A stretch of 64,000 nucleotides of DNA, from assembly GCF_019880205.1 (NCBI RefSeq), contig NZ_CP082292.1:1364001-1428000 (forward strand). The letters are read 5' to 3'. The notes below the pieces were generated by a model. It saw nothing but the letters and a program-made list of their open reading frames with translations. It had not been told where the DNA came from and made no database searches. A program made the translations under genes and the position numbers. Within the stretch, counting starts at the first letter, position 1. Every line of letters starts with the position of its first letter. This document shows, piece after piece, positions 11,234 through 32,603 of this stretch. This DNA comes from Pantoea alfalfae. Lineage in GTDB: Bacteria > Pseudomonadota > Gammaproteobacteria > Enterobacterales > Enterobacteriaceae.

Positions 11234-11336
11234 GGGAACACGGTCAGATCGGAAAGTCGCAAAAGCCGTCATCCATGACATGCTCGGCCCACGCCATCCC
11301 TGGCGTGGGACGCTTTCCTCTTCTGACCGTGTTCCC
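11234..11336 (+). repeat. Structured palindromic intergenic element, copy A
   Basis: A 103-bp element bounded by 15-bp perfect inverted ends (GGGAACACGGTCAGA at 11234 and its complement ending at 11336). A second arm pair is GGAAAG / CTTTCC. Two inner hairpins are seen: 11268-11279 (GTC-ATCCAT-GAC) and 11288-11309 (CCCACGCC-ATCCCT-GGCGTGGG). It lies between the convergent mglC and sanA genes. It aligns without gaps to copy B at 32501-32603, with 91 of 103 positions identical by my count. Compare copy C near 49098-49212. Confidence 0.9.
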
Positions 11337-11600
11337 TGCGCGTTGAGCTTATTCATTGTTATAAGATTCACCCTCTTCAGATTTCTCAGCAGTCTAAGTC
11401 GGCTTTCAGAGGGGAAGTAGCACTGAATTATCTACCGTAGTCATGTAATTAATCAGCTTAATGATCGCTGCATAGTAACAGATGGCGACTAAACGTATGC
11501 TCCCTGAGCCAGCATATTACCGTCAGCTCCCTGAGCCCTGCACGTTACTGCCAGACCTCGGCACAGCAATAACCAGCATAAAGAAGTCGCAGCGCGTGAG
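11337..11600. other. Non-coding spacer before sanA with short repeats
   Basis: I see no credible gene here. It holds a 17-mer, CGTATGCTCCCTGAGCC, at 11494-11510 that recurs exactly at 49196-49212 beside copy C of the structured element. GCTCCCTGAGCC appears a second time at 11526-11537. The rest shows no recognisable feature. Confidence 0.7.
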
Positions 11601-12320
11601 CTATTTCCGCAGTTTCTGTTCCAGCTCCAGCAGCTGCTCCGGCGTCACCGCCGGATAACTCTGCGCGTCTTCAGGAACATCGTGTACGGCAGGAATCGGC
11701 ACCAGCGGGCCTAAGAAACGGGGTTCACGCTTAAGCAGGAAGAGGTCCGCCAGTGCACCCAGCCGGGCACCGACCTCACGGAAGCGCACGCTCAGCATGT
11801 TTTTCGGTGAGGGCACCGCATAGCACTGGGCCTGAATGCCCAGCTGCAGGGCGATAAACAGCGCGCGCTCACAGTGGAAGCGCTGCGTGATAATAATGAA
11901 ATCATTGGTATCAAACACTTTGCGGGTGCGCACAATCGAATCCAGCGTCCGGAACCCGGCATAATCGAGCACGATATCAGCCGGATCGACACCGGCTTTG
12001 ATAAGATCGCGGCGCATCGTCATCGGCTCATTATAGCTTTGCAGCGCGTTGTCACCGCTCAGCAGCAGATAATTCACTTTGCCACTGTTATAGGCATTAA
12101 GTGCGCCCTGCATACGATAGAGGTAATACTGATTGATCACGCCTGTACGATAATATTTCGCTGTCCCCAGGACCACACCTACCTGACGATGCGGCAATGA
12201 AGCGACATTTTCGTATATAAAAGGCGCAGTTTTCCAGCTGATCCAGCGATCAAGGCCGAGCGCCGTTGCCACCATCAGTAAGATGATGAAAAGCAGACCA
12301 ATGAGAACGCGTTTCAGCAT
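11601..12320 (-). CDS. sanA: SanA, vancomycin/envelope barrier protein (DUF218)
   Basis: Inner-membrane-anchored DUF218 protein of 239 residues, needed in E. coli for the envelope barrier to vancomycin at high temperature. One N-terminal membrane segment (about residues 4-24, [18 protein letters not shown]) is followed by the DUF218 domain with [21 protein letters not shown] and the region around [13 protein letters not shown]. It matches E. coli SanA closely. In E. coli the neighbour is cdd; here maeA lies between them. It is probably transcribed from its own promoter in the 135-nt gap before it. Confidence 0.96.
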
Positions 12321-12419
12321 GCGCCTGGAGACTCGATGTCAAAATAGTGAGATGGGACAAGGCTACTTGAGCAGCCGCAGCGAAGCAAGTGACTGCCGGC
12401 TGGCTGTACGTTTTTTGAA

Positions 12420-12449
12420 CACTGCCGGACCAGAGGCGATCCGGCAGTG
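12420..12449. other. Strong inverted repeat between maeA and sanA
   Basis: Arms CACTGCCGGA (12420-12429) and TCCGGCAGTG (12440-12449) form a perfect 10-bp stem with a 10-nt loop, 6 nt after the maeA stop. Neither strand has a proper T-tract after the stem, so it is either a weak terminator or an mRNA 3'-end stabiliser for maeA. Confidence 0.6.
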
Positions 12450-12455
12450 GGAAGG

Positions 12456-31013: not shown

Positions 31014-31023
31014 CAGCTTCTCC

Positions 31024-32238
31024 TCACCAGTTCCACAGGGTGCCATCTTCAAGACGGGCAACCGGGAGATAGGCAGGTTCATAGGGATATTTCGACGCCA
31101 GTTTCTCGTTGAATTCAATGCCGAGACCGGGTTTGTCGCCTGGATGCATGTAGCCCTGGTCAAAGGTCCAGTTAGCCTCAAACAGCTCCATCATCTGTTC
31201 GGAGAAGCCCATGTACTCCTGCACACCGAAGTTCGGCACCCAGAGGTCAAAGTGCAGTGCAGCCGCCATGCAGATAGGGGAGAGATCAGAAGGACCGTGC
31301 GAGCCGGTGCGTACCTGATAGAGCGAGGCAAAATCAGCGATACGCCGCATACCGGTAATGCCGCCCGCATGCGTAATGGTGGTGCGGATGTAGTCGATCA
31401 GCTGTTCTTCAATCAGCTGCTTACAATCCCAGATGCTGTTGAACACTTCCCCCACGGCAATCGGCGTGACGGTATGCTGGCGGATCAGGCGGAAGCACTC
31501 CTGATTCTCAGCAGGCGTCGGATCTTCCATCCAGAACAGGCGATAATCTTCCACGCTCTTGCCAAAACGCGCCGCTTCGATTGGCGTCAGGCGATGATGC
31601 ATGTCATGCAGCAAGTGCTCATCGAAACCAAACTTGTCACGGATGGCGGCGAACAGTTTCGGGGTGAAATCGAGGTATTTCTCGGTTGACCAGAGCTGCT
31701 CTTCGGGCCAGTTACCTTTAGTTGCAGGCTCATAGGCCAGACCTTTGCCTTTCGCCATGCCGTAGGTGGTTTTCATGCCCGGGACGCCGCACTGCGCGCG
31801 GATCGCTTTAAAGCCCAGCTCTTTGTGCTTCGCGTAGTCATCCATCACTTCATCAATGGAGTGGCCGGTGGTGTGGCAATAGACCATCACGCCGGTGCGT
31901 GATGCGCCACCCAGCAACTGATACACCGGCATATTGGCGGCTTTGCCTTTGATATCCCACAGTGCCATATCGACGGCCGAGATAGCGGACATGGTGACCG
32001 GGCCACGACGCCAGTAAGCGCCCTTGTAGAAATATTGCCAGATGTCTTCGATCTGATGCGCATCGCGGCCAATCAGCTGCGGGCAGACATGATCTTTCAG
32101 GTAGGAGGCGACCGGCAGCTCGCGGCCATTCAGCGTGGCATCACCCACGCCGGTCAGACCCTCATCGGTGGTGATTTTGAGCGTGACAAAGTTTCTGCCT
32201 GCGCAGGTTACAAATACTTCCGCCTTAACAATTTTCAT
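31024..32238 (-). CDS. rspA: Enolase-superfamily sugar-acid dehydratase RspA
   Basis: Mandelate-racemase/enolase-superfamily dehydratase of 404 residues, very close to E. coli RspA and the ManD family. It shows [20 protein letters not shown], the metal-site regions [11 protein letters not shown] and [10 protein letters not shown], and [10 protein letters not shown]. The family dehydrates D-mannonate or D-gluconate to 2-keto-3-deoxygluconate. In E. coli RspA was first linked to starvation signalling through homoserine lactone. It is the first gene of the operon, with its promoter in the 32239-32427 spacer. Confidence 0.95.
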
Positions 32239-32427
32239 CCTGGTTGCCTTTCAGTCAGCGTTCAATGACGAAAAAGTACGCGCTTTAATACTACCATACA
32301 AGTTAGTCTGGCAGAGTTGTGAAGCCAGTCACAGACTGTTTTCTGGGACGAAATGGGGTAATGAACTGGCGTATTATTTGGCGACAAAAAGGGCGGCGTG
32401 GTAGTAAAACGACGGGCGGCCAGCGTG

Positions 32428-32447
32428 AAAAAGGGGCTTTCGCCCTC
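32428..32447 (-). terminator. Terminator-like hairpin downstream of yegS
   Basis: On the minus strand GGGC-GAAA-GCCC (32445 to 32434) is followed by CTTTTTC. The stem is short (4 bp plus wobble) but has a stable GAAA loop and a T-run. It would end transcripts from yegS before rspA. Confidence 0.55.
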
Positions 32448-32500
32448 TTAAGGTTATTGACAGCGTCTGCCCCTGCTGGCTGTAAGACCCAGCCGACGAA

Positions 32501-32603
32501 GGGAACACAGTCAGATCGGAAAGTCGCAAAAGCCGCCATCCCTGGCATGCTCGTCCCGCGTCGTCCCTGACGCGGGACGCTTTCCTCCTCTGCCCGTGTT
32601 CCC
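32501..32603 (+). repeat. Structured palindromic intergenic element, copy B
   Basis: 103 bp, aligning without gaps to copy A at 11234-11336. Outer ends are GGGAACACAGTCAGA and its imperfect complement TCTGCCCGTGTTCCC. The inner hairpins are GCC-ATCCCT-GGC (32535-32546) and CCCGCGTC-GTCCCT-GACGCGGG (32555-32576). Flanks are also shared with copy A: a GAA before, and TACGCTTTAAGCT here versus TGCGCGTTGAGCT there after. It lies downstream of yegS and upstream of rspA, both on the minus strand. Confidence 0.9.

Follow-up and report, generated by a model that had tools for sequence, protein, structure and literature searches.

What are the two 103-bp repeats that lie outside genes in a 64,000-nucleotide stretch of Pantoea alfalfae DNA (contig NZ_CP082292.1, positions 1,364,001 to 1,428,000; hereafter the window), and why would their hairpins be kept while their sequence changes? 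The explanation that we hold to be probable, taken as a whole, is that of a mobile element of the YPAL/RU-2 type which inserts at terminators and carries paired CsrA sites. The core sequences of the window are the following:

11234..11336, plus strand: core palindrome of copy A (fold, alignment, model match)
32501..32603, plus strand: core palindrome of copy B (fold, alignment, model match)
11107..11144, plus strand: partial core start, upstream of copy A
49098..49215, plus strand: third, diverged element (cmsearch 66.5 bits, E 7.6e-14)

Alignment of copies A and B bears out the preliminary description: they align over 103 bp without gaps and with exactly 12 differences, six of which are three compensatory pairs that keep the inner stems, one in hairpin 1 (36/45, T-A to C-G) and two in hairpin 2 (58/73, A-T to G-C; 61/70, C-G to T-A). 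Two other differences fall in the loops, at the free N of hairpin 1 (position 42) and, in hairpin 2, at the last base of the loop, which is variable (position 63). Both strands fold far better than shuffles, with z of -9.6 for copy A and -7.2 for copy B on the plus strand, and -9.1 and -8.3 respectively on the minus strand. The 23-mer that starts the core occurs three times in the window with at most 3 mismatches, and in none of 100 shuffles. The two copies had also been rightly placed outside genes: copy A is flanked by the convergent mglC and sanA, copy B by yegS (3' end) on one side and a manD-like gene (5' end) on the other. The element at 49098-49215 represents a second subfamily with a different outer stem; its plus strand corresponds to the minus strand of copies A and B, and of its loops one is CAGGGATG while the other, CTGGGATG, has no A before the N.

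It had been proposed that selection maintains the two inner hairpins, the outer arms being unconstrained. With RNAalifold, 45 diverse copies share 32 pairs, 16 of them with double-sided compensatory change, a count from which hairpin 1 is absent since the consensus omits it (alignment gaps). The covariation is strong: its score is 0.276, whereas shuffles give 0.115 and slid partners no more than 0.065. The core folds as a long stem closing on a junction with two hairpins, and in this outer helix 11 of 16 pairs present a double-sided compensatory change. The outer arms are therefore maintained too, family-wide, and their supposed freedom does not survive the comparison of many copies. As for selection on the inner hairpins, the covariation is real, but the outer arms covary as well and template switching between the arms of long DNA palindromes can homogenise these arms and yield covariation. 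Because the same pattern can be produced in this way, covariation alone is no proof of RNA selection.

The element had not been recognised, and had been taken as 103 bp long. The family to which it belongs is nevertheless in print, the original YPAL paper being reportedly that of De Gregorio in 2006. When reverse-complemented, the RU-2/YPAL sequence of Yersinia pestis given in PMC2759123 aligns with the core of copy B (73% over 101 positions, E 3e-13), with the core of copy A (73% over 96 positions, E 5e-12) and with both ends of copy B. Ends of the YPAL type, like TGAGGTTATTGACAAAG and GTTTGTCAGCAGTCTGA, are both present in copy B; copy A has the right end alone, no left end being recognised there. 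The 103-bp repeat stands as a core, but the element at copy B extends over about 217 bp (about 32449-32665):

32449..32665, plus strand: full element of copy B, with left end TAAGGTTATTGACA, core and right end GTTTGTCAGTAATCTGA (RU-2/YPAL alignment, right-end pattern at contig positions 1396649-1396665, empty sites; limits uncertain by a few bases)
11381..11397, plus strand: right end of copy A, ATTTCTCAGCAGTCTAA, 3 mismatches from the right-end pattern
32433..32445, no strand assigned: terminator hairpin as duplicated on the left side, GGGGCTTTCGCCC; the A tract before it is the U tract of minus-strand transcripts
32667..32680, no strand assigned: right copy of the duplicated terminator hairpin, GGGGCTTTCGCCCC, present here as a single copy in four same-genus genomes

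We have hardly any doubt that the element of the window belongs to the YPAL family. A separate, unrelated repeat family with its own protein partner would agree with the Rfam searches, in which no family reaches its cut-off at copy A or B: for copy A, RF02770 Ysr224 (Yersinia sRNA 224) scores 34.1 bits on the plus strand against a gathering score of 70 (E 2.5e-6 for 301 bases searched), and RF01731 TwoAYGGAY RNA scores 21.3 bits on the minus strand against a cut-off of 43 (E 0.56), which is why we do not file the element as a TwoAYGGAY member. On the other hand a copy from another genus of the family, L278, exceeds the Ysr224 cut-off with 83.6 bits, and the alignment with printed YPAL, which takes in both ends of copy B, refutes an unrelated DNA family. 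This alternative is thus extremely improbable.

The element is structured, multi-copy and intergenic, as had been anticipated. In its own genome, blastn with copy A gave at least 59 match pieces (40 of 85 first-look candidates scored), from which 39 copies and one fragment were extracted; further diverged copies surfaced by tracing the right end and a 78-bp unit described below. A pattern scan of named genomes found at least 120 loci, and the 80 locus titles listed comprise Yersinia, Pantoea, Rahnella, Erwinia and one 'Enterobacter cancerogenus' strain. A covariance-model search of the kind suggested for further copies, carried out on 148 genomes of the order with a model of 45 copies, gave matches in 32 genomes and in 14 of 65 genera. 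The distribution is patchy: among the genomes listed without a match, 7 belong to the same family, including one from the same genus. At 22 loci of other genera, folded as single elements, the plan of a stem, a junction and two hairpins is kept with unrelated outer stems. The model favours the A-N-GGA columns discussed below and partly selected the distant matches by them, so that the loops of these matches are not independent evidence.

How does the element reach so many 3' regions? Six regions from genomes of the same genus were compared at the copy-B locus. Four of them (L272, L273, L275, L276) are empty: a single terminator hairpin with its A tract, i.e. the U tract for the minus-strand yegS, occupies the place where our genome has a hairpin before and after the element. 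In three of these regions the left flank can be aligned; L276 has the right flank only and a slightly changed hairpin. The closest relative, G054 (L271), carries the orthologous copy B with a 78-bp unit that copy B of the window does not have. In G029 (L274) a unit-bearing copy occupies the same place but is inverted, suggesting that it inserted independently.

The duplication was also scored automatically on 154 copies. Both ends were recognised in 35 of them, none from the own genome, whose copies are too diverged at their ends to be scored in this way; those with known titles are from Yersinia. A flanking duplication above 99% of permuted pairs was found in 29 of these 35 copies: five duplications are of 6-9 nt without a hairpin and 24 are of 15-30 nt, and all of the latter form hairpins of at least 6 bp, versus 23% of shuffles. 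This fits the duplications of 3-26 bp at sites of dyad symmetry described for YPAL in PMC2229807. Flanking genes converge on the element at 17 of 20 own copies and at 62 of 99 other scored copies (greedy ORF method; from an input of 30 own and 120 other loci, those with a missing pattern, a short flank, a repeated context or no ORF were dropped). The element inserts at terminators and duplicates the hairpin, which we regard as practically established. Two of the roles imagined at first, a transposase-mobilised repeat and an mRNA 3' structure, both agree with the multi-copy state, the gene context, the empty sites and the covariation.

The minus strand of the element draws attention to the loops:

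11225..11343, minus strand: copy A strand with two A-N-GGA hairpin loops, CAGGGATG and CATGGATG
32492..32610, minus strand: copy B strand with two A-N-GGA hairpin loops, CAGGGACG and CAGGGATG

On this strand both hairpin loops read C-A-N-G-G-A-N-G, the second N being mostly T or C. Among 110 distinct cores (drawn from 139 sequences, 120 selected on flanking anchors plus 19 short own copies), the A and the GGA of either loop reach 97-100% conservation, and the first N, often a purine, is nearly free at 0.5-0.6 bits; the hairpin-1 stem columns, the closing C-G pair excepted, are mostly at 0.15-0.76 bits. A structure-first parse of 121 cores found A(N)GGA in 110 hairpin-2 loops and 88 hairpin-1 loops; it was absent in 11/121 and 33/121 respectively, no hairpin 2 being found in 4 cores and no hairpin 1 in 10. 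In MFE folds of the 19 short own copies, 14 have two A(N)GGA loops, 3 have one and 2 have none. The 78-bp unit, when present, replaces the loop of hairpin 2 and brings its own A-N-GGA hairpin(s), so that one-unit copies have again two such loops (11 of 14 in MFE folds), and the 5 three-unit own copies have three or four. When only perfect 5-bp hairpins are considered, an A(N)GGA loop occurs on the minus strand in 16 of 21 in the short own copies, in 14 of 56 in the 14 one-unit copies and in 14 of 59 in the 5 three-unit copies; it occurs in none on the plus strand of own copies, and in 3 of 516 in the rest of the window.

A-N-GGA is the type of site recognised by CsrA/RsmA, according to the CsrA SELEX and CsrB loop consensus, and the freely varying N between A and GGA is a signature of CsrA. 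The own genome encodes a single CsrA as well as CsrB, among whose predicted loops are CA[GGA]TG and TC[AGGAC]GA, and the paired GGA hairpin loops of CsrA-binding RNAs are present in the element. We therefore lean, by a short head, towards the view that the loops are conserved because CsrA or a similar protein would bind them; judged from the loops, the initial idea of a protein-binding site may be right in the form of predicted CsrA-type loops. Several results count against the CsrA reading: Ysr224, which matches the element, corresponds to the opposite strand; some cores and short own copies, as counted above, do not have A(N)GGA in one or both loops; and neither strand bias nor significant constraint in orthologs is found, as detailed below.

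Could the same loops belong to an ordinary YPAL repeat, whose loops and stems would owe their conservation to recent descent and to template switching from one arm to the other, and whose effect, if any, would be generic RNA stability at 3' ends? The homogenisation of long palindromes mentioned above speaks for it. Descent, however, fails to explain an A and a GGA so conserved beside a nearly free N and amid such variable hairpin-1 stem columns, and we judge this alternative improbable.

A further alternative is that the A-N-GGA loops are read not by CsrA but by the mobilising enzyme, as single-stranded DNA hairpins; only copies with intact loops would then spread, hence an apparent conservation. 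Two negative results agree with such a filter at mobility more than with host selection. In tandem gene settings there is no bias of the GGA strand, the minus strand being transcribed at 15 loci and the plus strand at 21. Similarly, constraint after insertion is not significant at copy A. The full core is found there in 9 of 14 regions of same-genus genomes; if our own copy is counted in, A-N-GGA is intact in hairpin 1 of all 10, and A(N)GGA in hairpin 2 of 9 of the 10, two of which have no N. Over the ortholog columns, 1 of 8 A.GGA positions is variable, as are 31 of 100 other positions (p 0.25).

In the search for an autonomous partner, right-end matches were collected from the own genome and from Y. 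similis. In the own genome, the right end with at most 2 mismatches gave 9 matches, 8 being YPAL copies and one resembling a coding sequence. Y. similis has 102 right ends (at most 1 mismatch), versus at least 96 core matches (from 150 scored candidates out of 1390). Seven right ends that had no core match and were chosen by eye among the matches listed turned out to be five right halves of a sibling element, one truncated YPAL (L333) and one neither (L329). This sibling has the same ends as YPAL (both ends are seen in 2 of the 5 pieces) and an unrelated core; it is also found at hairpin targets, and in L334 it forms a tandem with a YPAL at one and the same hairpin. A(N)GGA loops are absent from all five pieces examined. 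Mobility thus appears to be defined by the ends and not by the loops, which favours an RNA function of the loops. Considering also that the free N is characteristic of CsrA, we find the reading of the loops as single-stranded DNA unlikely, although it keeps some weight.

In the explanation that we prefer, a putative enzyme acting in trans would recognise the ends of the element (left end near TGAGRTTRTTGACAAAG, right end near GTTTGTCAGCAGTCTGA) and would insert it at intrinsic terminators while duplicating the terminator hairpin, leaving the order hairpin, element, hairpin. In this order the element cuts off the hairpin first met by the transcript from its U tract, which stays with the hairpin on the far side; transcripts should therefore traverse the element, then stop. 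The element would thereby place, most likely, paired candidate CsrA sites into 3' regions. A paired CsrA-site RNA in the YPAL core is a testable proposal without match in the open-licence literature searched, where YPAL was found joined neither to CsrA nor to TwoAYGGAY.

Small palindromic repeats are often regarded as junk or as generic RNA stabilisers. Hairpin duplication would explain how the element enters tight convergent gene pairs without breaking termination. If the CsrA sites are selected, transposition could alter the target load of a global post-transcriptional regulator, and this would bear on the function of TwoAYGGAY RNAs. More tentatively, YPAL-type repeats might form a mobile network titrating CsrA/RsmA: terminators would be entered yet kept working through hairpin duplication, paired sites would be spread over dozens of 3' ends, 78-bp units would keep two or four sites, and TwoAYGGAY RNAs would count as related members of this class and not only as stand-alone sRNAs. 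We put this forward as a possibility that we doubt more than we believe.

How does the element compare with known repeats and RNAs? REP/BIME are GTAG-tagged palindromes of 20-40 bp, and the left ends of the window element, as read, are near TGAG, not GTAG. ERIC (RU-1) and RU-3 are likewise enterobacterial intergenic repeats of similar size, and ERIC has TA ends and TA target duplications, according to PMC2759123. Identity with ERIC was set aside on these features, the duplications of YPAL-type copies being of 6-30 bp and mostly hairpins; RU-3 of Delihas, also 103 bp long, was dropped by eye as its printed sequence differs.

Among RNAs, Ysr224 is a related sequence on the plus strand of the element, the window copy staying below the gathering score. 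TwoAYGGAY resembles the minus strand in architecture, with an outer stem and two hairpins whose GGA loops are in the same register; its loops are A-Y-GGA-Y, whereas those of the element are A-N-GGA with an N that is often a purine, and the junction sequence is another one. TwoAYGGAY RNAs, predicted to bind CsrA (PMC4333381) and listed from human gut, gamma-Proteobacteria and Clostridiales (PMC2864571), are also multi-copy in the order: the Rfam model has matches in 39 of 148 genomes, 30 over the cut-off and often many per genome, and in none of 14 control genomes. With the YPAL covariance model TwoAYGGAY loci are detected weakly: of 12 loci, 2 gave matches, 4 in all, the highest at 22.3 bits (E 0.0018). 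Like the sRNAs that sequester CsrA (CsrB/CsrC/RsmYZ), and like CsrB of the own genome, the element has repeated GGA hairpin loops; unlike them it is dispersed mobile DNA, with mostly 2 and up to 4 GGA loops per copy.

The closest relative remains YPAL/RU-2, with which the Pantoea element has in common the core sequence, both ends, the variable hairpin-linked target duplication and the intergenic multi-copy state. YPAL/RU-2 is 167-168 bp long and Pantoea copy B about 217 bp, with a longer outer stem; we take this as a size variant because printed YPAL itself has classes of 130-169 bp (PMC2267715). The Pantoea element differs further by the optional 78-bp unit, in 1 or 3 copies, and by the second subfamily with another outer stem: it is a variant of the known YPAL miniature element.

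The 78-bp unit, which replaces the loop of hairpin 2 in some copies of the element, is located in this hairpin in L027, L028, L030, L032, L036, L179 and other extracted loci. It has 53 matches across the window's own genome (identity 87-100%), arranged as six runs of three, one run of about 1.7 and, for the rest, single units; in two genomes of other genera, G272 and G221, it is also found as runs of three partial matches. The unit is present in the ortholog of copy B in the closest relative (L271) and absent from copy B of the window (32501-32603): it has thus come or gone while the element itself stayed in place. 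At the copy-B terminator of another genome (G029, locus L274) lies a copy apparently in reverse orientation, as though one hairpin target had been struck twice, independently.

Further features of the window are as follows.

11012-11091: a 20-bp repeat (GGAGTGCAGGCATTGTCGCT-like) in a tandem array, directly upstream of copy A
24567-24664, plus strand: TPP riboswitch (Rfam)
33675-33758, minus strand: CyaR sRNA (Rfam)
49098-49215, plus strand: third element, of the second subfamily, between convergent genes

Tandem left-end motifs similar to the 20-bp array occur upstream of locus L017. The outer stem of the third element differs from those of copies A and B but is self-complementary. A terminator (about 49240-49264) adjoins this element, and its left arm is found again on the other side, at about 49063-49075.

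A separate repeat of the own genome (L319 and L320; C1:1605084, 1607811 and 740593), at least 200 bp long and with several GGA hairpin loops, scores above the cut-off of TwoAYGGAY (RF01731; 43 bits). In L321 (genome G168) and L314, tandem TwoAYGGAY copies lie inside a repeated segment, with a spacing of about 430-610 bp.

A sibling small element was found in two regions of Y. similis.

L334, about 316-439: sibling element
L332, about 2370-2514, minus strand: sibling element

It has its ends in common with YPAL, whereas its core is unrelated.
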